Assembly (NCBI GenBank): GCA_016933955.1
Contig: JAFGTT010000008.1
Coordinates: 1 to 64,000, forward strand
DNA from: Candidatus Zixiibacteriota bacterium
GTDB lineage: Bacteria > Zixibacteria > MSB-5A5 > GN15 > PGXB01
Reading direction: 5' to 3'
DNA: 64,000 bases
Shown: piece by piece, positions 6,379 through 64,000 of the stretch
How positions within the stretch are numbered: the stretch's first letter is position 1
Layout: each line of letters opens with the position of its first letter
Notes under the pieces: generated by a model
Databases searched by the model: none
Seen by the model: only the letters and a program-made list of their open reading frames with translations
What the model was told of the DNA's origin: nothing
Translations under genes and position numbers: made by a program

Positions 6379-6937
6379 AGTTTTCTTGTATTTTATCGGG
6401 ACGCTATTGGTCATAGTGGTGGAGGTCACAAAGGCATTGAGTTGTATCAGGAAGCGACTTGGACAGGGGGGGCAGAGGAGCAAGGGGGCGGGGGAGGTAG
6501 TTAATTTCCGTATTTTGAAGAAATTTCACTATAGTCACATCCTGTTTATTAATCCATTGTGATCTGTAAAATGTTTTGTGGGCCGTTGGGTGCGGGTGTA
6601 GACGAACAATCGGAATTTTCGGCGGTTACGAGTATATGATTATCAATTTTCGAGATAATTCGATTTTGGCCGAAAACTTGATTGAGTGTGCTAAAAGCGG
6701 ATATTAATTATTGCGGGCAGAATATGGAAATAATAATAAATTGGTCGATTTTACGAAATAACACCGGCATCCAAAGGATGTCTTAAGGCAGAGAGGTGAT
6801 TGATTGTAAAAGCAGGTGATTGATATCTTCGGGCCATCGGTAGAAGCCGGGTGGAATCGGGACCGGATCGGGCTTATGGCAGAGGAGGTATCCCCCAAAC
6901 CGAATCAATCCAAACGATTTATTTTGCGCATAACCAA
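6379..6937 (+). promoter_or_regulatory. Long leader of the first sigma/CHAT module, with a direct repeat
   Basis: About 560 bases without a gene. The middle is AT-rich (around 6700-6770). The clearest structure is a direct repeat GGTGATTGAT at 6795-6804 and 6815-6824, period exactly 20 bp, that is two helical turns on one face of the DNA, about 115 bp before the sigma-factor start. A protein-binding role is inferred. I do not see a convincing sigma-70 hexamer pair or an ECF-type GGAAC/GTC pair. The second module at 59005 also has an unusually long upstream gap. Confidence 0.4.
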
Positions 6938-7552
6938 GTGAGTAAGAACAGCATCATTGATTTAGCATCATTGGTTAGACGATGTCAGGATGGCGACGAA
7001 CAGGCCTGGATAAAACTAATTGATCGAGTCCATCTTGAGGTTTTTCTGATCTGCCGGAAGATGAAATTATCTCATCAGGAGATTTTTGAGATTTACGGAC
7101 AGGTCAGTCTGAAACTTCTGGATAATCTGAAAAATATCAGGTCACCGGAGAAAATAATGAGTTATGTCGCTTCGATAACCAGAAATGAAATCCTGTCATT
7201 ATATCGGAAGGAGCGGTTATTCAAGCGTTTGGTAAATCCGGTGGCGTATGAATTATATGATTCCCGACGGGATCAGCCCGACGAGATACTGGAAGCCAAG
7301 CTGGACAGCGATGCTTTGTGGGAGGCGATAGTGACTCTGCCGGATCAGGAATTCCGGCTAATCCAGCTTTTATTTTTTGACCGGCGCAAGCTCGATTACC
7401 GGGAGATTTCCCGGACGCTCGGGATTCCCAAATCATCGATCGGCCCGATGCGGGGCCGGATAATTGCCCGTCTTCGCGGAATGCTAAAACAGCGGGGGAT
7501 AATTGACGGTGAAGGATCGGGGGACAGATTAAGCAGTAATACGGGGGATTGA
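6938..7552 (+). CDS. ECF-family sigma factor of the first CHAT module
   Basis: A 204-aa sigma-70 family protein with region 2 (about 8-80; FLICRKMKLSHQEIFEIYGQ, VASITRNEILSLYRKER) and region 4 (about 135-195; LDYREISRTLGIPKSSIGPM). I choose the GTG at 6938: from there it aligns residue for residue with the paralogue at 59005 (VSKN...LASLVRRC against MDKN...LSSLVGRC), and the extra N-terminus from the ATG at 6851 has no counterpart. There is no strong ribosome site before the GTG. It is one base from the next gene, so probably co-transcribed with the putative anti-sigma and the TPR-CHAT protease. It presumably directs RNA polymerase to a small regulon, most simply its own operon. Confidence 0.85.
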   Translation: MSKNSIIDLASLVRRCQDGDEQAWIKLIDRVHLEVFLICRKMKLSHQEIFEIYGQVSLKLLDNLKNIRSPEKIMSYVASITRNEILSLYRKERLFKRLVNPVAYELYDSRRDQPDEILEAKLDSDALWEAIVTLPDQEFRLIQLLFFDRRKLDYREISRTLGIPKSSIGPMRGRIIARLRGMLKQRGIIDGEGSGDRLSSNTGD

Positions 7553-7553
7553 A

Positions 7554-8144
7554 ATGCAGAATGATTATATGAATGATGAGGTTCTCTACAAGTATCTGGC
7601 CGGGGAACTTTCCGCCTCGGAAGAAGACGATCTTTGCAGGCGACTGGCATCCGATAAGTGCCTGAAAGAGACTTTTGATATTATCCGGGAGCTTCACTCC
7701 GAGGGAAGCGGGACGGATTGGAGCCAGATTCGGGTTTCGGCCCTGGAACTGGCCAGAAGAGTTTTCAATGATTATCGCCGTAGTCTGAAGGAAAAGACCT
7801 TCAGTTATGGAATTAATGTTTATGATTCCAAAGTTCTCCCTCTCCCCCAGGGAGTCAGACCGGCCAGGATTGATAATCGCAGGTTAACATACAAGGTCGG
7901 TCGATTTGATCTTGATATATCTCTTTACCCGGTAACAACCGATTCATATGAACTAATCGGTCAGATAACCGGATCGGAAGAAAGCCGGGTGACCGGAGTG
8001 AAACTTAAATCAAAAAAGGCGGTTATTGAATCAGAGGCCGATCGGTACAACCTCTTTCGTTTCGCGCGGATACCGATCGGGAATTATACTCTCAATTTAA
8101 TGTCCGGCGATAAGAAAATCGGCGCTGTAACATTCGAATTATGA
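7554..8144 (+). CDS. Putative anti-sigma/adaptor protein between sigma factor and TPR-CHAT
   Basis: A soluble 196-aa protein with no transmembrane helix or signal. Residues 8-40 (VLYKYLAGELSASEEDDL) look like the N-terminal helices of anti-sigma factors of the FecR/zinc-finger class, without the zinc His/Cys residues. A linker (about 45-95) leads to a conserved beta-rich C-terminal domain (about 97-196) with LPLPQGVRPARIDNRRL, LYPVTTDSYELIGQI and NLFRFARIPIGNYTLNL, similar to carboxypeptidase-regulatory-like modules. The paralogue at 59627 shares both parts. Its position, 1 base after the sigma gene and overlapping the protease start by 4 bp, suggests it holds the sigma factor and may be the protease substrate. 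That is inference; no named family is recognised. Confidence 0.7.
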   Translation: MQNDYMNDEVLYKYLAGELSASEEDDLCRRLASDKCLKETFDIIRELHSEGSGTDWSQIRVSALELARRVFNDYRRSLKEKTFSYGINVYDSKVLPLPQGVRPARIDNRRLTYKVGRFDLDISLYPVTTDSYELIGQITGSEESRVTGVKLKSKKAVIESEADRYNLFRFARIPIGNYTLNLMSGDKKIGAVTFEL

Positions 8145-10903
8145 TAAGTATCGGGCAGTTTCACAAATTCAGAAACAGGCAGGTCCTGGAGCGTTATATC
8201 ACCAGGAAACATGGCGGTGATATCGCCAAATTTCTGACTGACGTTGATATCAGCCTTAATCACATTATCAAGGCTGATATGAAAAAGATGGGTGAGTGTG
8301 TGGATGATGCCAAACAGATTTTTAAGTACCTGCCGCAGCAATACAAACCGCGGTTATATCAGATAATCGGGCGGTACAATAATTTCAAAGCCAATTACCG
8401 GGCGGCCCTGAAATATTACCTCCGGGCCCGGGAGATGCATGAGAAAGCGGGCAATACGGAAGCCGTGGCGCGGCTCAACAAGGGATTGATCGATGTTTAC
8501 AATTATCTGGGGCAGTATGACGAATCTCTGAGAATCGGGCGGATGGCCCTGCGGTTCTTTCGACGGAAGAGATTTATTGAAGACGCCGGGCAGGTTTTGG
8601 TCAATATCGGAAATATTTATCATCGCATGGATAACAATCCCATGGCACTCAGGTATTACAACCGGGCCAGGAAAATTTTCGTTAAAACCGGCGGGTATCA
8701 GCTGGCCATAACCGAGTTCAATCGGGCCAATGTTTATGCCAACCTGAACCAGATCAGAAAAGCCGAAACATTATACCGGTGTGCCGCGGCGTTGTATCAT
8801 GAAGCAGGTATGGAAATTTCCGTATTAAGGGCGGAATCGGCCCTGGCCTACCTATTGTATCTGGGAAATCGCTACACCGAGTCTTTGACCATGTTCGAGC
8901 GAACCAACGATCGCATGGAGCAGCTTGGTTCAGTCCGGCCATCGGTGATTTTACTTCTCGACCTGGTTGAAATAAACGCCAAATTGAATCAGTATGGTTC
9001 GGCTATACTTCTGGCCGAGACGTTGATCCCCCGCTTGAAGAAGTATGGTATGCCCTATGAAATGGCCAAGACATATTATTTCGCGGCCGACGCCCTGATC
9101 CGGGTGGGCGATTATGATCGGGCTTCCCGGATGTTGAAACAGGCTGTCAGGGTTTTTGAGGAAGAGCGAAATGTGTTATGGCTGGGGATGGTCAGTATTG
9201 CCGAAAGTCGTCTTTATCAGGCCGAGGGGAAGTATGGTCCGGCCATCAAGTCGGCGACGGAAGCCAGGAGTTATTTTCGGAGGAGTGGTGACGAGGTAAG
9301 GCGGATAGACGCCGAGATCACGATGGTCGAGGCGTATCAATGCTCCGGCGATATGGCCCGGGCAGATCGGGTGTCGAAACGTCTTCTGAAAATGCGTCTG
9401 TTGAGTTACCAGAAATACAATCTCTATTATCCGCTCGGCCAGGGCTATTATACCGCCGGTCAATATGATAAGGCATATGCCATGTTTAAAAAGGCCATAA
9501 CGGAGGTGGAGAAAATGTTATCCGGCCTTTACCCCGATGAAATTCGATTTTTCTTCATGACAGACAAATATGATTGTTACCGAATGGCGGTCGAATGTCT
9601 TTTGCGGCTGGGACGGACGCGCGAATCGTTCATTACCAGTCTGAAGGGGATCGAGCTGGTCAATCAAAAATCGGCTTTTGAAAAAAAGATTCAGGCGGAG
9701 GTTCCCGCTGAACTCCTGGAGAAACGCGATCGGCTCCGGGCCGCCCTGAAACGGCTCAGTCAAACCGCGCCCGGTGAACAACGCAGTTCCGGAAATATGG
9801 CCACCTACTATTCAATCGAACAGAAATTGTGGTATAACGAGCGTAAAATAAGAGCCAGTCTGTATCCCGATGAAAAAAAGGTCAGGCGGAAGACATCCGC
9901 GGAATTTGATCCCCGCCGGTTATTGCAGAAAGACGAGACAATGGTCAGTTTCTTTTCTTCGGGAGCGATGTCGGGGGCTTTTTGCGCCGCAGCCGATAAG
10001 ATCGATTTTGTCAGGTTCGATATCACTCGTGAGGAATTGGAAGTAATGCTTCGCAAGCTTCATTTCATTTTTGAGAAATCGGTTTTTGGATTACGAGATG
10101 TCGATCGCACCCGGCAGATTGCCGATTATTATCTGGAGTTGCTTTATCGCAGGATATTCCGACCGGTAGAGTCTTATCTTTCCGGCCGCAAAGTAATCGC
10201 TATTACCGACAGCAGTTTCGGGCAAATTCCGCTGATTGCCCTGCGGGATGAGGCCGGGATTTATTTAAAAGACAAATATGATATCCGGATTCTCGTGAAT
10301 CCGGGGGATTTGAAACGTCGGCTGGTTTCCGATGATCGGATGGTAAAGACCAGGAATGCCATTTTTGCGGTATCATCCGATTCACTGCCGTCGATTGACA
10401 GGGAAGCAAACGAGATCAACAAATTGTTTGAGAAATCCCGGCTGTATTTAGACAAGACGGCCAGCTGTCATAATTTATCGGAGGAATTGAAGGAGGTTGA
10501 TGGTTTTGTGCACATAGCCGCGCACGCCTCGCGATCATCGGAGAATCCGTTGTTTTCGATGATTCTGATGGGTGACGGGCCGTTTTATCCGTTCGATTTA
10601 TTTGAATCTGGTGTACGGGCCAGGTTGGTCACTTTGTCGGGATGTCAGACAGCCGCCCCCGGTCTTTACTACGGCAATTCTTTCAGTCTCGCCAAGGCAT
10701 TTTACCAGGCCGGAAGTCAACACGTTCTGGCATCGTTATGGCCGGTCTCTGATAAGCTGAGTATGCTCTTTATGATAGAGTTCTATAAGACTCTGGCTAA
10801 AGTGGGGAATGTTTACAGTGCTTATCAAAATGCGGTCAACAGGATCATTGATATCACCGATAATCCCGCGTTTTGGAGTTCATTCGTTTTGCTTGGCATT
10901 TAG
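8141..10903 (+). CDS. TPR-CHAT caspase-like protease, first copy
   Basis: A 920-aa cytoplasmic protein. Residues about 50-520 are tandem tetratricopeptide repeats (for example LKYYLRAREMHEKAGNTEAV, LVNIGNIYHRMDNNPMALRY). The C-terminal part (about 580-920) is a CHAT domain of the caspase/separase clan, with predicted catalytic His795 in HIAAHAS and Cys835 in LVTLSGCQTAAPG, followed by the usual ASLWPVSD and DNPAFWSSFVLLG. Both catalytic residues are intact. The start overlaps the adaptor stop as ATGA. Known relatives include Csx29, the TPR-CHAT protease of type III-E CRISPR systems that cleaves an inhibitor of a sigma factor; here a sigma factor and small partner are encoded immediately upstream but no CRISPR genes are present. 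The paralogue at 60217 has exactly the same length. Confidence 0.9.
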   Translation: MISIGQFHKFRNRQVLERYITRKHGGDIAKFLTDVDISLNHIIKADMKKMGECVDDAKQIFKYLPQQYKPRLYQIIGRYNNFKANYRAALKYYLRAREMHEKAGNTEAVARLNKGLIDVYNYLGQYDESLRIGRMALRFFRRKRFIEDAGQVLVNIGNIYHRMDNNPMALRYYNRARKIFVKTGGYQLAITEFNRANVYANLNQIRKAETLYRCAAALYHEAGMEISVLRAESALAYLLYLGNRYTESLTMFERTNDRMEQLGSVRPSVILLLDLVEINAKLNQYGSAILLAETLIPRLKKYGMPYEMAKTYYFAADALIRVGDYDRASRMLKQAVRVFEEERNVLWLGMVSIAESRLYQAEGKYGPAIKSATEARSYFRRSGDEVRRIDAEITMVEAYQCSGDMARADRVSKRLLKMRLLSYQKYNLYYPLGQGYYTAGQYDKAYAMFKKAITEVEKMLSGLYPDEIRFFFMTDKYDCYRMAVECLLRLGRTRESFITSLKGIELVNQKSAFEKKIQAEVPAELLEKRDRLRAALKRLSQTAPGEQRSSGNMATYYSIEQKLWYNERKIRASLYPDEKKVRRKTSAEFDPRRLLQKDETMVSFFSSGAMSGAFCAAADKIDFVRFDITREELEVMLRKLHFIFEKSVFGLRDVDRTRQIADYYLELLYRRIFRPVESYLSGRKVIAITDSSFGQIPLIALRDEAGIYLKDKYDIRILVNPGDLKRRLVSDDRMVKTRNAIFAVSSDSLPSIDREANEINKLFEKSRLYLDKTASCHNLSEELKEVDGFVHIAAHASRSSENPLFSMILMGDGPFYPFDLFESGVRARLVTLSGCQTAAPGLYYGNSFSLAKAFYQAGSQHVLASLWPVSDKLSMLFMIEFYKTLAKVGNVYSAYQNAVNRIIDITDNPAFWSSFVLLGI

Positions 10904-10919: not shown

Positions 10920-12404
10920 ATGAGCAATATCAAATTTTCGGCTTTGGGGGTGTTGTTATTTTTATTCGTATCTCTGGTCGCCTTTCCGTGGCATAACGGG
11001 GAGGCCGGCCAAAGAGATGTAATCCAGATTCATCCGGCGGCCATTCCCGGTCAAGCGATTGTGAATCTTGAAGCCGCCAAGTCGGTACATGATCTGGCAG
11101 GTGATATTGACGGCCGGGTACTGAAGAGCGATCCATGTAAGAAAAATATATATCTCATCTCGTTTCCCCGTGATTATACATTTGATGAAATCAGGGATGC
11201 CCTGAAGCATAATTCCGGGGTTATATCGGTCCGGCCCAATTACCGGGTAGCATTACCCGAAGTAAACCAGGGAAGTGATATTTTTCCCGATCAGAGCAAT
11301 CCCATTTACCTGGAAGGATCCAGTCCGAGTGCTTATTATGAGCAACAGAGTGAGGGCAATGTCGGATCGGATTCGGCCAATATGCTGGCAACCGGGCGGG
11401 ATGTGGTGGTCGGGATTATCGATAACGGGGTTGAGTATTACCATCCGTTGTTTATCTATATCGACAGTATTACTTCCGATACGACCCTGGACAGTACATT
11501 TGCCGACATGGGATACGATTATGTCGATGATGACAGCAGTGCGGCCGAGGAAACGGGTGACGCTTATGGACACGGGACATTCGTAACCGGAATCATCAGG
11601 CTGGTGGCCCCGAATTGCCGGGTTATACCGTATCGTGCTTTCGATGACGACGGTGTCGGAAGCAGTTTCGATGTATCATCGGCCATTTACCAGGCGATTG
11701 AAGACGGTGTCGATGTGCTTAATATGAGTTTCGGTTTATACTCCAGCGACACCTCAATAGCTGATGCGGTGGGCGAGGCGTACGAAGCAGGAATTGCCAT
11801 GGTGGCTTCATGCGGCAATGATAACACCGCCACACCGTTCTATCCGGCCTCATACACCGGAGTGATTGCGGTCTCGGCCATTGACAGCCTGGATTACCCG
11901 GCGGATTTCTCCAATCACGGAGCATATATCGATTATTGCGCACCGGGAGTCAACGTGTACAGCTCCCTGGCCGGTGAGTACAAGTGGGGGATCTGGAGCG
12001 GGACCTCGTTCGCGGCGCCGCAGGTGACGGGGATATGTGCCTTGATCCTCGAATGGAAACCGGCCTATTCCAGTTTGCAGGTCGACAGCCTGATTCGCAA
12101 GACAGCCGACACTTCGCTGGCCTGGGGTTCTTTTACGCCTCATGATTCATCGTACGGTTACGGCCGGGCCGACGCCTATGAGGTGGCCCTATGTCTGCGT
12201 CGAGGCGATGTGGATAATTCAGGAACCATTGATTCGTCGGATATCGTTTATTTGAACAGCTACCTGACAACGAGCGGTCCGCCCCCGGTACCGATCTTGA
12301 AACTGGGGGATGTCAACTGCTCCGGGATAATTAATACTCTGGATGTGGCGTATTTGATCAATTATCTCAACAGCGGGGGACCGGCTCCATGCTGTGGGGA
12401 ATAG
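10920..12404 (+). CDS. Secreted subtilisin-like serine protease with C-terminal dockerin repeats
   Basis: A 494-aa protein from the ATG at 10920, which has a GGGAGAG ribosome site and begins a signal peptide (about 1-29). Residues about 40-115 resemble an inhibitor_I9-type propeptide. The S8 catalytic domain has Asp168 (GIIDNG), His218 (GHGTFVTG), oxyanion Asn300 and Ser363 (GTSFAAPQ). Residues 428-488 form a two-repeat type I dockerin (GDVDNSGTIDSSD and GDVNCSGIINTLDVAYLINYL region). It lies 16 bp after the TPR-CHAT gene and ends before a strong terminator, so it is the last gene of the module. A homologue with the same propeptide and catalytic core follows the second TPR-CHAT gene. The dockerin suggests docking to a cohesin on a cell-surface scaffold encoded elsewhere. 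Confidence 0.9.
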   Translation: MSNIKFSALGVLLFLFVSLVAFPWHNGEAGQRDVIQIHPAAIPGQAIVNLEAAKSVHDLAGDIDGRVLKSDPCKKNIYLISFPRDYTFDEIRDALKHNSGVISVRPNYRVALPEVNQGSDIFPDQSNPIYLEGSSPSAYYEQQSEGNVGSDSANMLATGRDVVVGIIDNGVEYYHPLFIYIDSITSDTTLDSTFADMGYDYVDDDSSAAEETGDAYGHGTFVTGIIRLVAPNCRVIPYRAFDDDGVGSSFDVSSAIYQAIEDGVDVLNMSFGLYSSDTSIADAVGEAYEAGIAMVASCGNDNTATPFYPASYTGVIAVSAIDSLDYPADFSNHGAYIDYCAPGVNVYSSLAGEYKWGIWSGTSFAAPQVTGICALILEWKPAYSSLQVDSLIRKTADTSLAWGSFTPHDSSYGYGRADAYEVALCLRRGDVDNSGTIDSSDIVYLNSYLTTSGPPPVPILKLGDVNCSGIINTLDVAYLINYLNSGGPAPCCGE

Positions 12405-42820: not shown

Positions 42821-44822
42821 AGGATAATTCTTCCAGCTTTCTGATTTCGCTTTCGGAGCGTTTGATATAATCTTTTATTTCTTCGTTTTCGGGATCGATC
42901 AGAGCCGCTTTCTTCCAGATATCGATGGCTTCCTGCAGGCGGCTTTGACCGTACAATTCAACCCCGACAAATTTGTAAGCCTTAACCAGATAATCCCGGA
43001 CCGACTGATAGTCCGGCGCCAGTCGTTCGACCTCTTCCCATTTTTCGATGGCCTTTTCCAGATCACCCTGCTCGAACATTTTTCGAGCCGTACGATATGC
43101 GGATTCGACTTCCCTGAGCAGTTCCGTACTCAGGACCGGGGCTTCGCCCCGGCCGGCCGGAGGCGTTTGTCTGGCCGGTTGATTGAGTTCCCGGACCGCC
43201 CGGTCCCGCATCTCCAGGCACCAGCGATGTTCCGGGAAGAGAACCAGAGCGCTGTCGAGAGCGGCGATGGTTTCCCGGTGATCTCCTCTATCGAAGGCCG
43301 TTACGGCCTTTTCCCTGAAAATCTGGAAAGAGACTCGCCGCATGGCCTGATTTACCCTCGGATTATCGGGGGCATACTGCCTGAGGGTATTGATTTCAAC
43401 TGCGGCGCGGTCGAGCTGTCCGTAGCTGAGCAGTGAGTCGATAACCAAAAGCCGGCTGTCGATCATTTCTTTTTCCGAGGCGATCCGCTCAATGGCCCGG
43501 TCGGCTTCGCTGATCAGATTGCGGGCATCGGAGGAATTATCTATTTCGCCAAGGGCCAGTTGACCGAAATAGCGGGCGGCCAGATAATCACCGATATTCA
43601 TCTTGGCCTGGGCCGAATCCATATACTGGGAGTAGCGCATCTTAATGGTTACCTCCTGCAACCGATCATGAATTTCCTTTGCCATCCGGCGGATGGCAGT
43701 GGTGTCGATTCCAGCTGTCCGGGCCAGGAACAGGGCCCGGTCATAAAAATCGGCGGCCTCGACCAGACGGCCCTCATCATAGCTTTGTTTCCCTGACTGC
43801 TCCAGATCGGAAACTATCCGGTTGTTCCGGTCATTGAGATGAGTATTCATCATAGTATTGAAATCCGCCTCGCGGCGTTCAGCTCGTATTCTTTCCCGAT
43901 CACTGATGGTTTTGCCGATAGCCATCGAGATACTGAACATATGCAGATTGCCGAGATCGCGATCAACCAGGGCGTAATCGAAATCAAATCCTTTGTAACT
44001 CAGGCCGCCGCCCACCGAAAGTCTGCCATCGCGCACTCCGCCCCGGAGATGAACCAGGTCGTGAAGACTGTATTCCAATCCGGCGGCAAAACGGGCCGAT
44101 ACGGATTCCGCTTTGGTCAGCCGTCCTGAGAGAGTGGTTTTATGGTTTTCATTATTGAAGGGGACCGCACCCAGAGCGACCGCCAGATCAAAAGCGGTGG
44201 GGTAATTGATACTCTGCTCGGACAACTGCAGGCCGGGTTGGACTAGGTTCCGGAGATTTACGGCCAGGTTCAGTTCTCTCAGGCGTCCCGATCCGAGATT
44301 GAGCCGTCGACCTATGGAAAGATTCAATCCGGGTGACGAGGTGGCGCTGTACTCATCGAGGGACTGGTGCTCGAATGTCACCGCCGCGCCGATATCATAA
44401 CCGGCCAGATTACGGCCATAGGCCAGGTAATAAGCCATCCGGCTGTCATTGAATTCGCCCAGCAGGAGATTGTCGGCATCACGTTTTTCGATCCCATCGA
44501 TTCCCAGCCGAAACACTCCCAAACCGATCGTTCCCCAATCCAGAATCGGCAGAACCAGCCCGAAATACTGGTAAGCGGTCTGATCGTCGTACAGCCGGCT
44601 GTGGAATCCCGATAAAACCATCCGCTCGGTGCGAGCCATCCCGGCCGGATTCCAGAAGGGAGCGGTGGCCGAGGTGTTATCGGCCTGATTGGCCCCGCCC
44701 AGCGAGAGATCACCCGCCCCGGCGCCCATAACGAAAGGTGATTCGGTTCCGCCGTCGTCCGCGGCGAAGGCGGAAAGCGGCAACAGGAGGGCCGACAATA
44801 TGTATACCAGAATTCGTCTCAT
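42810..44822 (-). CDS. PorV/PorQ-like outer-membrane barrel fused to TPR repeats
   Basis: A 670-aa exported protein. Residues 1-20 are a signal peptide (ILVYILSALLLPLSAFA). Residues about 25-310 carry the PorV/UPF0164 pattern: GAGAGDLSLGGANQA, ATAPFWNPAGMA, then regularly spaced amphipathic strands. The C-terminal half (about 330-670) is helical with TPR units (EGRLVEAADFYDRALFLAR, EQGDLEKAIEKWEEVERLAP, RLQEAIDIWKKAALIDPENE). PorV-type barrels shuttle sorting-domain proteins to the surface in type IX-like secretion; the giant protein immediately upstream has such a domain and overlaps this start by 4 bp (ATGA). Confidence 0.82.
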   Translation of the reverse strand: MRRILVYILSALLLPLSAFAADDGGTESPFVMGAGAGDLSLGGANQADNTSATAPFWNPAGMARTERMVLSGFHSRLYDDQTAYQYFGLVLPILDWGTIGLGVFRLGIDGIEKRDADNLLLGEFNDSRMAYYLAYGRNLAGYDIGAAVTFEHQSLDEYSATSSPGLNLSIGRRLNLGSGRLRELNLAVNLRNLVQPGLQLSEQSINYPTAFDLAVALGAVPFNNENHKTTLSGRLTKAESVSARFAAGLEYSLHDLVHLRGGVRDGRLSVGGGLSYKGFDFDYALVDRDLGNLHMFSISMAIGKTISDRERIRAERREADFNTMMNTHLNDRNNRIVSDLEQSGKQSYDEGRLVEAADFYDRALFLARTAGIDTTAIRRMAKEIHDRLQEVTIKMRYSQYMDSAQAKMNIGDYLAARYFGQLALGEIDNSSDARNLISEADRAIERIASEKEMIDSRLLVIDSLLSYGQLDRAAVEINTLRQYAPDNPRVNQAMRRVSFQIFREKAVTAFDRGDHRETIAALDSALVLFPEHRWCLEMRDRAVRELNQPARQTPPAGRGEAPVLSTELLREVESAYRTARKMFEQGDLEKAIEKWEEVERLAPDYQSVRDYLVKAYKFVGVELYGQSRLQEAIDIWKKAALIDPENEEIKDYIKRSESEIRKLEELSYGR

Positions 44823-47800
44823 CGTATCACCGCGATTTTTCTTCGATATTCCTCGGTTCCGCCCGAGACATACCGGGCTGTTATCCGGCAAAAATAGGTC
44901 CCCGGAAGGACATCGAAATTGCCATCGTTGCGGCCCATCCAGATATCTTCGCGATGCGGACCCGCGGCCCGGAAGGCATTATCAGCGACCCGTTTGATCA
45001 TTTCCCCGGTAATGGTGAAAATTTCGATATCGACCTGAGCCGCCTCGGGCAGATTGTAACCGATAACGGTCGGCTCGTGGGCTGGATTGAACGGATTGGT
45101 GAAATTACTGAAAGACGAGCCCAGATTTTCCGCGGCCAGGGAAATCTCCGAAGCGTACAGTGGATATGATCCATTATCCAGTATTATGTAGCATGGCGTT
45201 TCCAGATTATGATCAGCAATAGCCATGAAGGATGAATCACCGAATCTAAAAGTGTAATTTCCCGGCGCGGCGGCGCTGTCGATCTCACAGCGCAATTCCA
45301 TCTCCAGGTTGCTTCCGATCCGGATAATCAATTCCTCATCAAGCACCAGCGACAGGCTGTCCCCGACAATCTGGCTGTCGACCGCCACGACATTATCGTT
45401 AATAATCAGGGAAACCGATCGGAATACATCGGATTCAGGGGATACATAACCGGAGGCAGTACGCTGAAGAAATTTTCCGCTGACCGATGACAGGGCCAGA
45501 TCTCCCAGAGGTGAGGGATTATCATAACGAAGATGACCGGATAACACCACGGCATCAGCCTGTCCCGGATAAGCCAGCAGGGTCGGTTGCCGTCTCAGTT
45601 GCAGGGCGGGCCGTCCGGCCGGAAGGAAAATACTCGAGACACCGGTCTGGAAAGGCATCTCGAAGGCGCAACCCGCCTCTATCTGAGGGGTATGGGCGGT
45701 ATCATTGGCATCCCGGATATTAATGGCCTGGAATGAGGGGATTTCCAAAACGAAATTGTCATAAAGAGCATCACTCTCGATATCGGCGACCAGTTCCAGA
45801 GTAAGAGTGTCACCGGGAGTGACCATGATGGCGCTGTCATCGAGATCAAAAACCGTATAGCCGCTCTGAAGCCGGATAAATGACTGATAATATATATTAC
45901 CGCCCGATATACGGTACCCGATCCGATCAAACAGGTGATCGGGGTCGAGGGGAATACCGAGGGTATCCAGTACCGTCAGCCGGATATCCTGGATATCCAG
46001 CGAGGCGAATCCGGAGTCGGCCGGGTATTCGATAAAAATATCAAACAAAGGCAGGGCATCGACACCGCCGACGACCGATTCCGGCAGGCGGGAAACCAGG
46101 CACAACTCGGGAGGAATGGCCGGATATTCAAATCCGGCGAAACTGGAATTGATCGGAAAGATCGATTCCGAGGCCAGGGTATAATTGGTATCGGTAACAG
46201 CCTGGAGAAGCGACCCGGAACTGAGATCGCGAATCACAAAGGCGGTACTGTCGGCGATGTGCAGGGCAAATCCCGAATAGGCGGGCATATTCCCGATCAT
46301 TACCTGGATTTTCAAAGAGTCAATTTCCCCGGGACTCAGAGTGATAGGGGAATTGAGCTGGATATCAAGCGATCCGGCGCCGATTTCGAAATCGTAGACC
46401 GAAGCGATGACTGTCGACTGGCGCACCAGGCGGACTTCATCTAACAACTGAGGAATAACCAGGGTATCGCCGAAATTATCGACGAACGCCATCGAGAGAC
46501 CGGTCAATTGAATCTGGGAACTGCCCGATTCTCCGGGATGGAACAGACGCAACCGGAGGACATCGACATTATACTGGCCGAAATTGACAGCCGGCGGCAG
46601 GAGCGATTCATACGAAAGGGCCATGGTCTGCGAGGGATCATCGATCCGGCAGGAAGCGGTCCGCATCGGAAAAGGAGTGGCCGGACTGATGGTGACCGGC
46701 TGATCGGCATTTTGATCGACGATGACAATGGCTTGTTCATCGGTAATTGCCAGAGCGAAATTATCGGCCAGAGCCAGGCTGTCAATGTCCACCAGCAGGG
46801 TGAACTGGTACTGCTGACCGGAGGTTATTATAATCGGTTCGGAAAAATCCATTAATATTTCGGGCTGGTCCGGGATATTGTCGATGATGCATAGATTGGT
46901 GTAGCCGGTGGCCAGGACCATCCGGGAAAGAGCCTCGGAGGCATTCATCGGCTGGCCGGAACCATTCTCGATCACGATCCGCAGACTGTCAAGTCTCAGT
47001 GAAGCCAGCGAGGAGGAAGTATCGGGTTGGAGAATTCTCACGCTGAACGGGAAAACATTGGTCTGTCCCCGGGTGACGGAGGTCGGGATAGTATTAATCA
47101 TTTGCACGACAACGCTGTCCGGAGCGATCTGTATGGTTATCGGTTCGGTTTCAACCAGGGCCGAGGTATCATTGATATCATTGGCCACCGCCCGCATTCT
47201 CCACAGGACCATTCCGGCCGAATCGGCCGTGAAATGGAAGGTGAAGGTTGTGGTTTCGTCGACGGCCAGGTTTACCGGCCCGGCCTCGGTCGAATCCAAG
47301 GTTACCAGCGAGGAATCGGAGATATAGGTGATTTCGCCGGTGATATTATCGATGGGATTCAGGCTGATATTGGTCACATTCATCCTGACGGCGATTTCCT
47401 GGCCGACGGAATAGGTTTCATTCAAAGGTTGTACTGCCAACGCCAGACCGGAGGTTGAGACAGTGAAAATTTCCGCGGCAACCAGCACCCGGTCGAGCGG
47501 ACCATCATTGAGAGAACTGTAATGGCAGCCGTTCAGCGGCAATTTGGCGCGGAAGGCGGTTCCCGGGGTGGCACTCAGGGAAACATCTCCGAGGACGAAT
47601 AGAATCGGAGCCGGATCGATAATTTCCAGGTTCAGCCCATCGGTCTGCCACAGACTGTCAACATAATTGAAAACGGCCAAAAGGGAATCGGTTTCCTGCC
47701 AGGTACTGTCATGATTGAGATCTATCCAGAGTTCCAGCGGCTCAATATCGGAGCTGTCGGCATCGAAAAGATTGTCAATGACAATGGTTTCGAGAGTGTC

Positions 47801-50800
47801 CGGTTGGTCGCCGTTCAGGGCCGGAATGAAGGCAAACAGGGTGACCGAGGTATCGCCGGGAGCCAGGGTCCGTGATTCCAGCGGCAGAGTCTTGTACTGC
47901 TGATAAACCGAACCATCGACCACCAGGTAACCGCCATTGGTCAGGGGCAGATTGCCGTTGACATTAACCGGTTCGAGGAAACTGAAATCGGTCGGGGCAT
48001 TGATGGAGACAGCCAGGCTGTCGGAATCGATTATGTCCGGAGGCACATCAATGACGACAAAAAAGTATGAAAGCGATTCGGCCGGGAGAGCGACATTCAA
48101 CCCGGTCAGGCTGAGTTTGCCGTCGGAGAAATAGCCGGTGGCAATCAGGGAATCGCGCTGGTAGGTCCGGTTTCGATCGGCATCATAGTACAACGCCACC
48201 TGGCCCAGCTCATGATCGGCAAAGTCCAGATCCGAGCGGCTGTGCGAAATATTGGTGAAAGTTATACTCCGAAGAGTCTGATCCCGGTCAAGATATCCAT
48301 TGTAAAGGGCAAAACTCAGGGCCATGTTGTTTTTCGAACCGGGATATATGATTGTGCTGGAGGCCGGGATGGCGATGGCCGTGACCCGGTTGGAGGGGAT
48401 AATCAGATGCGAGGCGGAACTCACCGCCGCCTTATCGTCAGGACCGATCAGATCGGATTTATACCGGGCGCCCGCCACCGGGATGCCGAACCGCAGAGTC
48501 CCGCCGTTAAATTGGGTATTGGCGATATCGATAGTGACATAAAAGGCGGCCCCGGTTGAAGGAACCGGGTAATTCAGATTGGTGATTTCCCAGTAGCTGT
48601 TGAAAAAACCGAATTGACCGAGTGAGGCATCACCGACCGAAATTCCGTCCTGGCCATCATCGGCCCAGAGCTTGACCGTAATCGGGGCATCATTAAGGCC
48701 CTGCCCGTCGGCATTAATCAGTTGCAGGGTCGACAGAATATCGTCGGCATAACCATTCCCCGGAAGGGTGAAACTGAAAACCATCTGGTTGACCTGTCCC
48801 CCGACAAGGGTTTTGCCGGGTATGGCGTCGATAACGATTCGTTCCGCCTGATAAGCATTTATGGTAAAGGACTCGGTGTTCCGAAGCGGGAAGGAACCTT
48901 CAATAACAGTTGTTTCGCTGAAATAGATATCCGATGAATCGGCCGGGCCGATATTAAGAGTATTGCCGTTTTTGCCATTCTCCGCATCAAGGGCCAGAGT
49001 TACAGCCAGGTCGATCGTCCCGCCGTTGGAGGACAGCACCAGATTGCCGGTGGTCAACATACAGGTCCCGTCAACCAGAACAGCCGTGGCCAGCAGGGAA
49101 TCGGTATCGCCGATATTTTCAATATCATCATCCCGATCAAGATAAATCAGAACACTGTCGATCTGGCTGTCGAGCAGGGCTTGTTCGACTTCTTCAATAT
49201 CTTCGGCGTACAGGGTCAGCCGAAGGCTGTCGATTGTCCTTTGATTGTTATAGCCGTTGATTATCTGCAGGCCCAGAATCGGAGGTGTTTCATATCCGGG
49301 AATCACTTCATCAGATTTAATATCATATGTCTTGATGGCTACCGCTTCCGAAGTCTGGATGGTGATGGTGTCCAGGGGGGTGGTGGCGCTGTCGATCGGG
49401 CCATCATTATTGGAGCTGACGTTAAGGCCATTTTGAGGGATATTGAAAGATATCGTGGCGCCGTTATCGGGGTAGTCGGCCAGAAAGGCCCCAACATAAA
49501 AGCGTTGCAGGGGATGAGTCATGGCGGCTTTAAAGCCGCTGACCACCCAGCGATTGCCGGTAAAGACCAGGCGGCCGAGCCGGATTTCGGCACCCGAACC
49601 ATTCCAGATATTATTGGCATTGTCCTGGTACAGCACCAGCGAATCGAAATCGGATTCGGCGGCTGTTTCGGTATTGACAATACTGAACAGATTCAAAGTA
49701 TCTTTATCATAGCCGTTGCAGGGAATATCTACTGCAAAAACATTATAAGCCGAAGCAATGGGGCTGATTTCCGTCAGCCCGGTGCTGATTTGAACCAGTT
49801 GCTCGGCCACGAGACCGTCGATGACGGCAACTCCGAGCGAATTAACCGTGGCCGGACCGGTCACCGGAGTTCCATCGAAGGTTTCGATATCGGCGGCCGG
49901 GTGAATGAGGACATCGAGAGTATCACCATCGCACGGATACAGATCAATATTCGCACCGACCAGAAAGGTCCGGCCCTCATCGGGCGGGATGACGACCGAA
50001 GCGAATTCGAAACTGGTGGTGGTTGAAACGCTGTAATCTTCGATGGCGATCAGGCTATCGACATCGGTCAACAGCGAATCATTATCAATATCCAGATAAA
50101 GACCGGCCGAATCGACATTGGTGATAAGCTGGGGCTGGTTGCCCGAACCGCGGGAATTATCATTCAGTGTCAGCCCGGTAATACCTTTATTATTATCATA
50201 ATAATTTTCAATACGGAAGGCCAGGATGGCGTTTTGGGGTTGTCCGGGATGGACCGTTTTATTGCCGATGGCAATCCCGGTTAAGTACAATTCCTCGACA
50301 TCGATAAAACCGGTGGTATCGGCCAGATTATTAAAACTGCTGACGGCGGTAACTTTAGCCTTTCCCGGGGCCGTCGCGATAAACCTGCCGGTACTGTCAA
50401 TATCTCCGATTCGCCCGAGGGCTTTCCAGGTGATATCTCCCGGCGCCGTGATATTCATTTCGGAGTCATATCCGGTGACGGAAAAGCTGATGGTATCGCC
50501 AATATTAATATCAGCCGAATCGGGCGAGATGACAATCTGGTTCAATTCACCGGAAACGACGGTGATCTGACCGGAAGTGTCGGTCAGGCCGTATCCGGTG
50601 GCGACAATATATCCGGTTCCCGAAGTGGCGGGGCTGAAAAGACCGCCGCTATCAATAGTCCCGATTCCGCCGAGAACCGACCAGTCGGCCATGACACCGG
50701 GATCGCTCTCATTACCATCGGCATCGAGAAATATATGGCTGAAAAGGATAGTACTGTCCGCCGAAACGGTGACGGTATCGGGCGAGATAATCAATTGCGC

Positions 50801-59004: not shown

Positions 59005-59589
59005 GTGGACAAAAACGATAGTAATTATCTTTCATCGCTGGTAGGCCGGTGTCTGGCCGATGACAGGAATGCCTGGACCGAACTGGTGGAGCGCATCACC
59101 CCGCTGGTTTTTTCAATATGCCGCAGGATGAAATTATCGCGCGAGGACAGTTTTGATATTTATGGTCAGGTGTCGTTTTTACTCTGGAAAAATCTGGATA
59201 GATTACAGACGCCGGCCAAATTGCTGTCTTACGTAACAACCATAACCCGTCGGGTTGTCTATGCTCATCAAAAGAAATCCAGGATACTGGAGCGGGTGGA
59301 AGAGGCCATCAAGTTGGAAACCGGCGATTTGTCGGCGGAAACACCCGAGGAAGTTTACGCCGTGCGGGAGAGAAGCGAGATATTATTAAAAGCCCTGGCC
59401 CGTCTTCCCAGACGAGATTATCAGCTAATTCGGGCGTTGTTTTTTAACCGGAGCAATCCCACCTATGAGGAAATTGCCCGGCAACTGGGCATACCAGTCT
59501 CGTCGATCGGGCCATCGCGCGAGCGTTGCTTTAAAAAACTGTATCGCCTGCTGAAGAAAAACGAGCGATTTTTTAGGTATTTTTTATGA
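59005..59589 (+). CDS. ECF-family sigma factor of the second CHAT module
   Basis: A 194-aa sigma factor, paralogue of the one at 6938: region 2 (FSICRRMKLSREDSFDIYGQ, YVTTITRRVVYAHQKK) and region 4 (YEEIARQLGIPVSSIGPSRE). The SSIGP turn in region 4 is shared by both copies. The start must be the GTG at 59005, because an in-frame TAA lies four codons upstream; this also confirms the GTG choice for the first copy. It is the first gene of the module; 37 bp separate it from the adaptor gene. Its target promoters are unknown, probably including its own operon. Confidence 0.88.
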   Translation: MDKNDSNYLSSLVGRCLADDRNAWTELVERITPLVFSICRRMKLSREDSFDIYGQVSFLLWKNLDRLQTPAKLLSYVTTITRRVVYAHQKKSRILERVEEAIKLETGDLSAETPEEVYAVRERSEILLKALARLPRRDYQLIRALFFNRSNPTYEEIARQLGIPVSSIGPSRERCFKKLYRLLKKNERFFRYFL

Positions 59590-59626: not shown

Positions 59627-60214
59627 ATGAAAAACGACCCAAACAAACTTGAACTCCTGCTGGAACTTGCCCGGGGCGGGTTGTCGGGCAACCGGAAAGT
59701 AAAAATCGAGTCCGAACTGGCCGCCGACGGAGAGTTACGTGATCTTTATAATATCGCAAAAAGCCTTCAGGAAGAAGGTTCAAGGACTGACCGGGACCAG
59801 CTTTACCGGTCGGCTATTGACATGTCGGGCAGGATGTTCGATGATATCCTGGAGGCTCGCCGGACAGGTCGCCCGAATAAAGGTATTGCCATTTTCGATT
59901 CCGGTTTTGTCCCTCTGCCGGAGGGGGTCCGGCCAGCCGCAATTGATACCCGGAAATTGAGGTACGCTTTTGAAAATTACGAGCTGGAATTGACTTTGTA
60001 TCCGGTTTCATCAGATTCTTTTGAAATAATCGGGCGGCTTTCAGGATCCGATCAGGAGCCTGACAAAATCACTCTTCGCCGGGGAAAAACCGTTTACACC
60101 GTCGAGACCGACCCGTTTCGCCTATTTCGATTCGCCCGGGTGCCATCTCTTGATTACACCCTGGAAATATCTCGCGGCGGCGAGGTTATCGGGCAGATCG
60201 ATTTGAACCTGTAA
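59627..60214 (+). CDS. Putative anti-sigma/adaptor protein, second copy
   Basis: A 195-aa paralogue of the protein at 7554, beginning at the ATG at 59627 after GGAGGAGGG. The N-terminal helical part (LELLLELARGGLSGNRKVKI) is more diverged than in the first copy, while the C-terminal beta domain is clearly conserved: IFDSGFVPLPEGVRPAAIDT, LYPVSSDSFEIIGRLSG, PFRLFRFARVPSLDYTLEI. The stronger conservation of the C-terminal domain suggests it is the part that meets the conserved protease, while the N-terminus matches its own sigma factor. No transmembrane segment. Two bases separate it from the TPR-CHAT gene. Confidence 0.7.
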   Translation: MKNDPNKLELLLELARGGLSGNRKVKIESELAADGELRDLYNIAKSLQEEGSRTDRDQLYRSAIDMSGRMFDDILEARRTGRPNKGIAIFDSGFVPLPEGVRPAAIDTRKLRYAFENYELELTLYPVSSDSFEIIGRLSGSDQEPDKITLRRGKTVYTVETDPFRLFRFARVPSLDYTLEISRGGEVIGQIDLNL

Positions 60215-60216
60215 TT

Positions 60217-62979
60217 ATGATTGACTTGTCACACATACAGGATCTCAATAGTCGATCCGCGGTCGAGGCGTTTATTTCCGACCGCTACGATGACAATGTT
60301 CTCGATTTTTTGCACGACTTGGATCGGGGTATCAACCGTCTGATCCGGACCGATCTGAAAAAATCGGCCCGTTATCTGGAAGCTGTAAAAAGGATTTTCA
60401 GGTATTTGCCGCCCAACCTGAAACCGCGTCTTTTTGCCATCCAGGGCCGATTTCACCATTGGACCGGTCAATATGGATCGGCCTTACGGTATTATCGTAT
60501 GGCCTTGAGGGAATTCCGGCGGAGGAGGAATACCGAAGCGGTGGCCCGGCTGGGCAAGGGGTTGATGGATGTTTACATGTATCTGGGGCGATACCGGGAG
60601 GCGCTTAATATCGGCCGAGATTCGCTGAATTTCTTCCGCAGAAACCGGTTTCAGACCGACGCCGGGCAGATTCTTAATAATATCGGTAATGTCTATCATC
60701 GGATGGATAATAATCATCAGGCTCTTTCCCATTACAACCGGGCTCTGGAAATATTCGGTGAGGAGGATAGTGTTTCGCGGGCGATTGTGCAATACAACCG
60801 GGCCAATGTTTACACCAATCTCAATCAACTTCGGAAAGCCGAGGAGTTGTACCGATCGGCGGCCGAGCTGTATCGCCGGTCCGGGATGGAGATCGCCGAA
60901 ACCCAGGCGGAGTACTCCCTGGCTTATCTTTATTTTCTTGAGGATCGCTACACCGAGGCGGCCACGGTGTTTGAAGCCGTTTACAATAAGTTTAACGCCC
61001 TGGGCGATGTTAAATCGGCGACCAATGCCCGGCTTGATATGGTCGAGATCGATATCCAGCTTAACCAGTACGGGTCGGCGATTATGGCCGCTGATGAAAT
61101 CATTCCCGAATTCGGCCGGCTGGGAATGCGCTATGAGCAGGCCAAAGCCTGTTTCTTTGCCGCCGAGGCCCGGATCAAGCTGGGAGATTATGTCCTGGCT
61201 TCACGCCGGTTGCGAACGGCCGAATCACTTTTTGTCAGGGAAGACAACAATCACTGGCTGGGTATGATTCATATTACCAAGAGCCGTCTGATGATCGCCC
61301 GGAGGCGGTTTGCGGACACTCTCAGGGAGACTGACCGGGCTATCGAAAGATTTGTGCGAAGCGGCAATGAACGGCGGCGGATCGATGCCGAGATAATAAA
61401 AATCGAGGCTATGATGCAGAAGGGTGATATCCGGGGCGCCTTGAAACTGGCCGGGACCTTTACCGATGAAAAACTGGTCAGCTACCAGTTGTACAACTTG
61501 CACTGTGTTATCGGGCAGTGCTATTACAATCTCCGGGAATATGATGTGGCTCTGGATAAGTTCCGTGAAGCGGTATGGATTGTCGAAAAAATGCTGGAAG
61601 GTCTCTATCCCGATGAAATTAGCTATTTTTTCGTAATCGATAAATATTACAGCTACAAAATGGTGGTCGATTGCCTTTTAAAACTGGGACGCATACAGGA
61701 TTCCTTCATCTCCAATCTTAAGGCCCTGGAAATTATCAACCGCAAGGCCGCCTCCGAACGACATCTGGAAAAAGAGGTTCCTCAGGAACTGGTAAACCGG
61801 CGCGATGAACTTCGGGCGGCGCTGAAAAAGATGAACCAGTCGCCCCGGGACAGCCAGCGACAGGCTTACAGCTATGCCCGATATTTTGCGCTGGAACAGG
61901 AACTCTGGGCCAACGAGCGCAAGATTCGAGCTTGCCTCTATCCCGACCGGATCAAGAAAGACAACGGCTTAGGGGCGAACGACGATATTATCGGATTACT
62001 GCGCCCGGATGAAACCATCGTCAATTTCATCACCACCGGGGCAATTACCGGGGTCTTTTGTGTCAACCGCAATAAAACGGAATTTGCTCAGCTGGAATTG
62101 AATCATGATGTGCTGGAATCGCTTCTCAGGCGATTACATTTTGTCTTTGAATCGGTGGTTTCGGGATATAAATATATTGATGAAGCGGGATTGGCGGCCG
62201 AAACCTATCTTAAGGAGATTTATCGGCTGGTTTTCAAACCGATCCGATCCCATCTTACCGGCGACAGAATAATAATCATGGCCGACGGCAGTTTCGGCCA
62301 GATTCCCTTCAATGCCCTCAAGGATGAAAACAATCATTATCTGATGGAAGATTTCCGTCTCAGTTACGCGGTCAATCCCGATGATCTTCGGGACAGAACC
62401 GAACTGGCCGGACTGAGCGAATGGAAAAACAATGCCATTTTCGCCATTTCGGGTGATTTACTGCCTTCGATTGAAATCGAGGCCCGCCGGATAAAAGATA
62501 TTTTCGGTCAATCGAAAGTATATTATGACCAGGCCGCTGACCGTCAGTCGCTGTTGAAAGAAATTGGGCGGGCCGATGGTTTTCTGCATATTGCCGCCCA
62601 TGCCTCACGATCATCGGAAAACCCCCTGTTTTCCCGGATTTTAATGGGTGACGGCCCATTTTATCCCTTTGATCTCTTCGAAACAGGTATAAGAGCAAAG
62701 CTGGTAACGCTTTCCGGTTGCCAAACGGCCGCTCCCGGATTATATTACGGTAATTCTTTCAGTCTCGCCAAAGCCTTTTATCAGGCGGGGGGAAGATTCG
62801 TCCTGGCGACATTATGGCCGGTGGCCGATAAGGTCAGCATGCTGTTTATGATACGATTTTATCAGGCACTGGCCGAGAAAGAAAATATACATGAGGCGTA
62901 CTGGAAAACGGTCAGGTCGATGATCGACGTCACCGATAATCCGGCTTTCTGGAGTTCATTTGTGTTATTGGGAATATAG
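60217..62979 (+). CDS. TPR-CHAT caspase-like protease, second copy
   Basis: A 920-aa protein, the same length as the copy at 8141 and similar throughout, including the TPR solenoid (about 50-520: SALRYYRMALREFRRRRNTE, ILNNIGNVYHRMDNNHQAL) and the CHAT domain (His795 in HIAAHAS, Cys835 in LVTLSGCQTAAPG, FVLATLWPVADK, DNPAFWSSFVLLGI). The stretch around both catalytic residues (RSSENPLFS, MGDGPFYPFDLFE) is almost unchanged between copies, so activity is probably maintained in both. The extreme N-terminus (1-40) is the most diverged part and may give specificity. Confidence 0.9.
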   Translation: MIDLSHIQDLNSRSAVEAFISDRYDDNVLDFLHDLDRGINRLIRTDLKKSARYLEAVKRIFRYLPPNLKPRLFAIQGRFHHWTGQYGSALRYYRMALREFRRRRNTEAVARLGKGLMDVYMYLGRYREALNIGRDSLNFFRRNRFQTDAGQILNNIGNVYHRMDNNHQALSHYNRALEIFGEEDSVSRAIVQYNRANVYTNLNQLRKAEELYRSAAELYRRSGMEIAETQAEYSLAYLYFLEDRYTEAATVFEAVYNKFNALGDVKSATNARLDMVEIDIQLNQYGSAIMAADEIIPEFGRLGMRYEQAKACFFAAEARIKLGDYVLASRRLRTAESLFVREDNNHWLGMIHITKSRLMIARRRFADTLRETDRAIERFVRSGNERRRIDAEIIKIEAMMQKGDIRGALKLAGTFTDEKLVSYQLYNLHCVIGQCYYNLREYDVALDKFREAVWIVEKMLEGLYPDEISYFFVIDKYYSYKMVVDCLLKLGRIQDSFISNLKALEIINRKAASERHLEKEVPQELVNRRDELRAALKKMNQSPRDSQRQAYSYARYFALEQELWANERKIRACLYPDRIKKDNGLGANDDIIGLLRPDETIVNFITTGAITGVFCVNRNKTEFAQLELNHDVLESLLRRLHFVFESVVSGYKYIDEAGLAAETYLKEIYRLVFKPIRSHLTGDRIIIMADGSFGQIPFNALKDENNHYLMEDFRLSYAVNPDDLRDRTELAGLSEWKNNAIFAISGDLLPSIEIEARRIKDIFGQSKVYYDQAADRQSLLKEIGRADGFLHIAAHASRSSENPLFSRILMGDGPFYPFDLFETGIRAKLVTLSGCQTAAPGLYYGNSFSLAKAFYQAGGRFVLATLWPVADKVSMLFMIRFYQALAEKENIHEAYWKTVRSMIDVTDNPAFWSSFVLLGI

Positions 62980-62993
62980 ATCAGGATGGGCAT

Positions 62994-64000
62994 ATGATAC
63001 GATTTAAAAACATTCGGCGTGTTTTAGCGGTCTTTTTATCGATAATATCTATACTGCTGGTGTCGCAACCGGAGTTGTGGGCACTTGACAGAATGGCGGA
63101 TCAGGCAATTGTCCGAGTCCGTGGGAATGTCAATATTAATTCCGTCATAGGTGACATCAACGGTATGCCGATCGATTCCATCAATCAGAGCAACACCTAC
63201 CTGGTGACATTCCCCGGCACGATTCCGGTTGATTCCGCCGTCAACAGACTTCGCCCTGAAAACGGGGTTCTACATGCCCAGCCCAATTTTATCTGGACGT
63301 TACCGGAAGTCGAGCAGATCAGCCAATCATTTCCCGATGAAAATCGCCCGGTTTTCACTATGGGAATCAGCCCGATACAATACTACGATACGGCCCTGGT
63401 GTATGATATCAATTCCGATACGGCCAACACGTTTTCCACCGGTGCCGGGGTGGTGGTCGCGGTGATCGATAATGGTATCAGGGCCGATCATCCGCTTTTT
63501 GTCAATTCACTGGCCGGACCCGGTTATGATTTTGTCGATGCCGATGATGATCCTTCGGAAGTGCCCGGCGAGGTTTTCGGCCACGGGACATTCGTGGCGG
63601 GAATAATCAAGCGAATCGCCCCGGATTGTCAGATTTTACCGATCCGGGCTTTCGATGCCGACGGCTACGGCAATTCCTTCACTGCCGCCAAGGCTATTTA
63701 TTACGCACTGGAGCATGGTGCCGATGTTATTAATATGAGTTTCAGCATGAATGAATCGAACCTGGTCATGGGCACGGTCATCCAGGAGGTTCTGCGCGGC
63801 GGTCCCGTAATGGCGGCGGCTTCCGGCAATGACGGCCTGGAAATGGTTACCTATCCTTCCGGCTACAGCGGTGTTATTGCGGTTTCGGCCATCGATACAG
63901 CCGATTATATTGCCGATTTTTCCAATTTCGGTTATTATCTCGATGTTTGTGCTCCCGGGGTTAATATTTACAGTTCCCTGGCCGGCGAATACGAATGGGG
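62994..64000 (+). CDS. Secreted subtilisin-like protease of the second CHAT module (runs off the window)
   Basis: The first 335 residues are in the window. Signal peptide about 1-30; propeptide about 35-105 (QAIVRVRGNVNINSVIGDI, NTYLVTFPGTIPVDSA); S8 core with Asp159 (AVIDNG) and His198 (GHGTFVAG), oxyanion region AAASGNDG, and CAPGVNIYSSLAGEYEWG, just before the expected catalytic Ser. It closely parallels the subtilase at 10920 up to the cut. Its start is 14 bp after the TPR-CHAT stop with AGGATGGG upstream. Whether it ends in dockerin repeats cannot be seen. Confidence 0.9.
   Translation, partial: MIRFKNIRRVLAVFLSIISILLVSQPELWALDRMADQAIVRVRGNVNINSVIGDINGMPIDSINQSNTYLVTFPGTIPVDSAVNRLRPENGVLHAQPNFIWTLPEVEQISQSFPDENRPVFTMGISPIQYYDTALVYDINSDTANTFSTGAGVVVAVIDNGIRADHPLFVNSLAGPGYDFVDADDDPSEVPGEVFGHGTFVAGIIKRIAPDCQILPIRAFDADGYGNSFTAAKAIYYALEHGADVINMSFSMNESNLVMGTVIQEVLRGGPVMAAASGNDGLEMVTYPSGYSGVIAVSAIDTADYIADFSNFGYYLDVCAPGVNIYSSLAGEYEW

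Follow-up and report, generated by a model that had tools for sequence, protein, structure and literature searches.

Transcriptional control by a TPR-CHAT protease has been described for Csx29, which cleaves Csx30, an inhibitor of the sigma factor CASP-sigma (PMC10028731). The presence of carboxypeptidase, subtilase and CHAT proteins at ECF54 loci has led to the proposal that the ECF54 sigma factors are controlled by proteolysis, with no anti-sigma factor (PMC8999054). Anti-sigma domains of the ASDI type are defined by four helices, a three-helix bundle and a fourth helix, and the HX3CX2C zinc motif, which occurs in about 56% of ASDIs, is not required of them (PMC7406223). Here we analysed a 64,000-nucleotide stretch of Candidatus Zixibacteria DNA (the window) in which an ECF-type sigma factor, a small two-part protein, a TPR-CHAT protease and a subtilase are encoded side by side. 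We read the small protein as a class I anti-sigma factor, soluble and zinc-less, that holds the sigma factor until CHAT proteolysis releases it, and we give this explanation as a whole a probability of about 0.5.

A conserved four-gene operon

The window contains two copies of the gene set, both on the forward strand (Table 1). Both open reading frames that a preliminary description had assigned to the small protein are present and encode proteins of 195–196 amino acids, and the common architecture it had seen in them was confirmed; their full lengths align with one gap at 37% identity (E = 2e-46). The real start codon of the copy-1 sigma factor possibly lies further downstream than the listed start, whilst the copy-1 subtilase frame is open from 10809 and its start was chosen by the signal-peptide-like stretch. 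The copy-1 TPR-CHAT frame overlaps the stop of the anti-sigma gene by 4 nt, and the TPR-CHAT proteins of the window are 920 amino acids long. Elsewhere in the window, positions 44819–54235 of the reverse strand encode a protein of 3138 amino acids with a signal-peptide-like start and repeated segments inside.

Table 1. Positions within the window of the two gene sets and of the parts of the copy-1 small protein
Feature	Position	Strand	Basis
ECF-type sigma factor, copy 1	6851..7552	+	NCBIfam sigma70-ECF 64 bits (cut-off 42.9); Pfam Sigma70_r2/r4 weak
Putative zinc-less anti-sigma factor, copy 1 (ASDI-like helices and beta-sandwich)	7554..8144	+	
Predicted N-terminal four-helix anti-sigma domain, copy 1, residues 1-79	7554..7790	+	Helices; family matches in members; sister-group alignment
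Short linker, copy 1, residues 80-86	7791..7811	+	Low conservation; length nearly constant
Predicted C-terminal CarboxypepD_reg-like beta-sandwich, copy 1, residues 87-196	7812..8141	+	Nine strands; CarboxypepD_reg in members; NOMO2 match
Most conserved element, copy 1, residues 91-110	7824..7883	+	DSxxxPLPxGVRPAxxDTRR, mostly coil
TPR-CHAT protease, copy 1	8141..10903	+	Pfam CHAT 138 bits, and TPR; His795/Cys835 conserved
Probably exported subtilase (S8) with dockerin, copy 1	10920..12404	+	Peptidase_S8 148.7 bits; Dockerin_1; hydrophobic N-terminus
ECF-type sigma factor, copy 2	59005..59589	+	sigma70-ECF 74.3 bits; Sigma70_r2 above cut-off
Putative zinc-less anti-sigma factor, copy 2 (frame open from 59594)	59627..60214	+	37% identity with copy 1
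TPR-CHAT protease, copy 2	60217..62979	+	Pfam CHAT 150.4 bits
Probably exported subtilase, copy 2, continuing beyond the window end	62994..64000	+	473 amino acids in locus L079

A genome search recovered 39 strong members of the small-protein family in 31 of the 132 genomes of the phylum Ca. Zixibacteria, and 14 further loci, with the same operon order where the contig allows, were recovered with the family profile as a divergent sister group. A sigma factor gene adjoins 37 of the 39 family members, the remaining two lying at contig edges; a CHAT gene follows directly downstream in 38, mostly with a 4-nt overlap, and a subtilase gene lies downstream in 34. The four-gene operon of sigma factor, anti-sigma factor, TPR-CHAT protease and subtilase is conserved and does not reflect chance, and the position of the small-protein gene between its sigma and CHAT neighbours supports the earlier suggestion that its product links the two. 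At a single locus (L033:8835-12985) the CHAT gene is divergent from the sigma, anti-sigma and subtilase genes. The CHAT gene is divided between two open reading frames at L036, L047 (first copy), L053 (first copy) and L062, a frameshift attributable to decay or to assembly error.

In a separate scan, the named contigs carrying the family all belonged to Candidatus Zixibacteria, and a profile built from ten members retrieved six Zixibacteria loci. No family match was obtained in a single-protein scan of named genomes, nor in a tblastn search of plasmids with two family members as queries, and the sigma/anti-sigma/CHAT/subtilase operon was absent from the three places at which plasmid CHAT matches were inspected.

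The N-terminal domain and its sigma factor neighbour

An AF2 model built from the 38-sequence alignment (pLDDT 87.9, mostly at least 95 beyond residue 110) predicts four helices (residues 3-15, 21-33, 35-52 and 56-79) followed by nine strands within residues 87-195, and no transmembrane segment was seen in the protein. The preliminary description had considered the N-terminus anti-sigma-like and devoid of zinc ligands, a view with which the family matches of members, the sister-group alignment and the motif counts all agree. No Pfam family is matched by more of the 38 members than zf-HC2 (8), and L033 alone exceeds its cut-off (30.1 against 22.2 bits); the top NCBIfam matches are 'putative anti-sigmaE' (10/38, best 5.6e-5) and 'anti-sigma factor' (6/38), all below the curated cut-offs. 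None of these 38 main-group proteins has HX3CX2C, or even CX2C, in its N-terminal domain. The motif, which is that of the ZAS anti-sigma factors, is present in the N-terminal domain of 12 of the 13 usable sister-group proteins, and hhalign joins the sister group to the window family over residues 25-189 (probability 97.9, E = 6.4e-13). In this alignment the zinc motif falls on the stretch 'RLASDKCLKE' and covers residues 30-37 of the window protein, with R30, D34 and L37 at the ligand positions.

In the sigma factor tree, the main and sister groups form two well supported clades that together stand separate from ordinary ECF sigma factors. This distribution is more simply explained if the window group lost its zinc ligands, the direction of change being left unfixed by the sigma tree alone. 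The one sister-group member without HX3CX2C (L124:1516-2136) branches deepest within its clade of the same tree.

Six weak matches were found outside the operon, five of which (L127–L131) match the N-terminal domain and lie directly beside an ECF sigma gene; four of these five are membrane proteins of about 150 amino acids that match zf-HC2 and anti-sigma models and have no zinc ligands. At the remaining locus, L132, the match is a zf-HC2 protein resembling RsrA, encoded beside a weak sigma match. The genes of this zinc-less membrane anti-sigma family of about 150 amino acids (L127:874-1317, L128:1532-1984, L129:1793-2236 and L130:1697-2140) follow ECF sigma genes immediately, and many of the phylum's genomes have them. 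Compared with CHAT-linked zf-HC2 anti-sigma factors, the zinc-less N-terminal profile aligned in the correct register but without significance (E = 0.14).

Given the adjacent ECF sigma gene, the four predicted N-terminal helices and the sequence homology to ASDI and ZAS proteins, identification of the N-terminal domain as a zinc-less class I anti-sigma domain is well supported by sequence, and the small protein is very probably the soluble inhibitor of the neighbouring sigma factor. A match to an unrelated fold, the outcome that the preliminary description had set against its own proposal, did not occur in these sequence comparisons.

Binding of the sigma factor by this protein is only hinted at by structural modelling. 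A sigma/anti-sigma read-through fusion (locus L048, one frame), an unnatural protein used as a docking proxy with nine rows paired likewise, gave an AF2 model with pLDDT 86.7 and pTM 0.69. Helix 4 reaches pLDDT values of up to 97 in the fusion model, although comparison with helix 4 of the single-protein model spans different proteins. The sigma half matches sigma factors solved with anti-sigma partners (CnrH, SigW and RpoE among them), and among the fusion-model matches listed with ranges, known sigma factors aligned in the sigma half only. Distance correlation gave no signal between the N-terminal domain and the sigma factor, but the N-terminal distances are saturated. When the regions upstream of 36 sigma genes were searched for a common promoter dyad, the best one occurred in 5 of them, equal to shuffles, so sigma autoregulation is unsupported.

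The C-terminal sandwich, the CHAT protease and the proposed release of the sigma factor

The C-terminus had been described in advance as the more conserved part and as beta-sandwich-like, and both points hold: mean column identity is 47%, compared with 30% for the N-terminus, and the AF2 model places all nine strands there. The domain is a putative carboxypeptidase-regulatory-like sandwich, with the Pfam family CarboxypepD_reg matched by 6 of the 38 members (best 25.4 bits, 1.8e-5, against a cut-off of 32.3) and a NOMO2 chain matched by the C-terminal profile (E = 7.8e-5). Foldseek/VIA with the whole protein returned generic beta-sandwich matches only (Z up to 7.8); so widespread a fold says nothing about function.

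The preliminary description had also regarded a low-conservation linker as a natural cleavage site. The linker is poorly conserved in sequence, but it spans only about 7 residues of nearly constant length where a long, variable segment might have been looked for, and the strongest conservation begins right after it, which weakens that idea. This conserved element, residues 91-110, is retained by the sister group as FDSWxxPxPVGVRG...RRLRF, and 35 of the 38 members have the DS motif at residues 89-92. Invariant columns of the 38-sequence alignment are M1, D91, S92, R102, P126, G136 and F168, three of which (D91, S92 and R102; 38/38) belong to the element, and four more columns are nearly invariant. 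The conserved coil is more likely than the linker to be the site of docking or cleavage. Arg102 itself was considered as the cut site and dropped, since proline follows it in 30 of the 38 members and a cut exactly there is unlikely.

By sequence, the downstream neighbour is a CHAT-domain protein with a His/Cys dyad that is conserved in all covering sequences (His795 in 44/44, Cys835 in 43/43). No N-terminal signal peptide was seen in this CHAT protein and most operon subtilases have a hydrophobic N-terminus, a difference that probably puts CHAT in the cytoplasm and marks the subtilase for export; in that case the subtilase would more probably be an output of the system than be cut directly by CHAT.

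Around the conserved operon, the anti-sigma homology, the predicted sandwich and the CHAT dyad, we infer a switch in which the N-terminal helices would keep the neighbouring ECF sigma factor inactive, whilst the beta-sandwich would be offered to the co-translated cytoplasmic TPR-CHAT protein through the conserved DSxxxPLPxGVRPA loop. A signal reaching the TPR domain would lead CHAT (His795/Cys835) to cut the anti-sigma factor in or near this loop or in the short linker, and the sigma factor, once freed, would transcribe its regulon, including the exported subtilase of its own operon.

A serious rival to CHAT cleavage is release by binding alone, in which the TPR-CHAT protein or a ligand of the beta-sandwich would pull the anti-sigma factor off the sigma factor, in the manner of a ChrR-like sensor or partner switch, and CHAT would cut elsewhere. 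ChrR is one of the soluble anti-sigma factors known to sense through a C-terminal beta-domain. Here conservation is higher in the beta-sandwich than in the domain facing the sigma factor, and in the distance correlation the C-terminal distances go with those of the TPR part (partial r 0.47), not with those of the catalytic part of CHAT. Non-proteolytic release nevertheless appears rather unlikely beside a strictly conserved CHAT dyad and a direct TPR-CHAT precedent that consists of sigma-inhibitor cleavage (PMC10028731).

The protein may instead be an anti-sigma factor that serves CHAT as adaptor or inhibitor, with either the sigma factor or some other protein as the substrate that CHAT cuts. 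Such an arrangement would suit the 4-nt overlap, which suggests a coupled anti-sigma/CHAT pair, as well as the proposal in the ECF54 review that the sigma factor itself is under proteolytic control (PMC8999054); that proposal, however, assumed that no anti-sigma factor was involved, and with a putative one encoded here we consider the arrangement improbable. That the protein is no anti-sigma factor, but instead assists CHAT as chaperone or adaptor, its N-terminal helices merely resembling zf-HC2, would agree with the window copies showing no anti-sigma family match of their own and exceeding no Pfam or NCBIfam cut-off, and with a PDB sequence search whose best known anti-sigma match was only RslA (3hug, E = 1.8), yet the sister-group HX3CX2C at the aligned position, the anti-sigma family matches of members and the constant sigma neighbour make this very improbable.

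Comparison with known systems

Like the Csx30/Csx29/CASP-sigma set of type III-E CRISPR, in which the inhibitor binds the sigma factor (PMC10028731), the operon described here combines a sigma factor, a two-part putative inhibitor and a TPR-CHAT protein in one locus. In contrast, no Csx30 match was found in NCBIfam or PADLOC, libraries that possibly hold no Csx30 model, and the window CHAT matched Csx29 at domain level only (17–23 bits against a cut-off of 300). Cas7-11 (RAMP, PF03787) had no match in the 96.6% complete genome. The preliminary description had proposed a Csx30-like role without direct similarity to Csx30; the role remains supported as a proposal by analogy, and similarity was indeed not detected. 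With neither a RAMP nor a Csx30 match, the system may work like Csx30 and is not classed as a member of the Csx30 system.

ECF54-type loci, whose reference member is actinobacterial, share the gene types ECF sigma factor, carboxypeptidase, subtilase and CHAT protein with the operon, as judged from their published description (PMC8999054). Whereas those loci were reported to have no anti-sigma factor, the carboxypeptidase-regulatory-like protein found here carries a putative anti-sigma domain, a comparison likewise made with the published description. The finding points to an anti-sigma-domain protein within an ECF54-like gene set.

With the ZAS and ASDI proteins (ChrR, RsrA, RslA and zf-HC2 proteins) the family shares the four predicted N-terminal helices, the zf-HC2 match of its L033 member and, through the sister group, the zinc motif. 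It differs from them in having neither zinc ligands nor a transmembrane segment, and in a C-terminal sandwich of its own that bears a distinctive conserved loop.

Besides the two of the window, the genome encodes two CHAT proteins (L077, G000:C31; L078, G000:C19) that are large and have a signal-peptide-like start, and whose neighbours are an ECF sigma factor and a zinc-motif membrane anti-sigma factor of the zf-HC2 type, so all four CHAT proteins of the genome are linked to sigma/anti-sigma pairs. These two operons resemble those of the window in keeping sigma factor, anti-sigma factor and CHAT side by side, but their anti-sigma factor is a zinc-motif membrane protein, their CHAT is probably secreted and the set includes no subtilase.

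We advance a broader proposal tentatively and at somewhat less than even odds: in a CRISPR-independent bacterial signalling module, a TPR-CHAT protease would switch on transcription when it cleaves a zinc-less anti-sigma factor. Csx29/Csx30/CASP-sigma would be the CRISPR-linked analogue of this module, which would supply the anti-sigma factor missing from ECF54-type loci. The operon offers a CRISPR-free system for testing control of transcription by a caspase-like protease through sigma-inhibitor cleavage, and if the proposal is true, the Csx30 switch would be a single example of a more general principle in bacteria.
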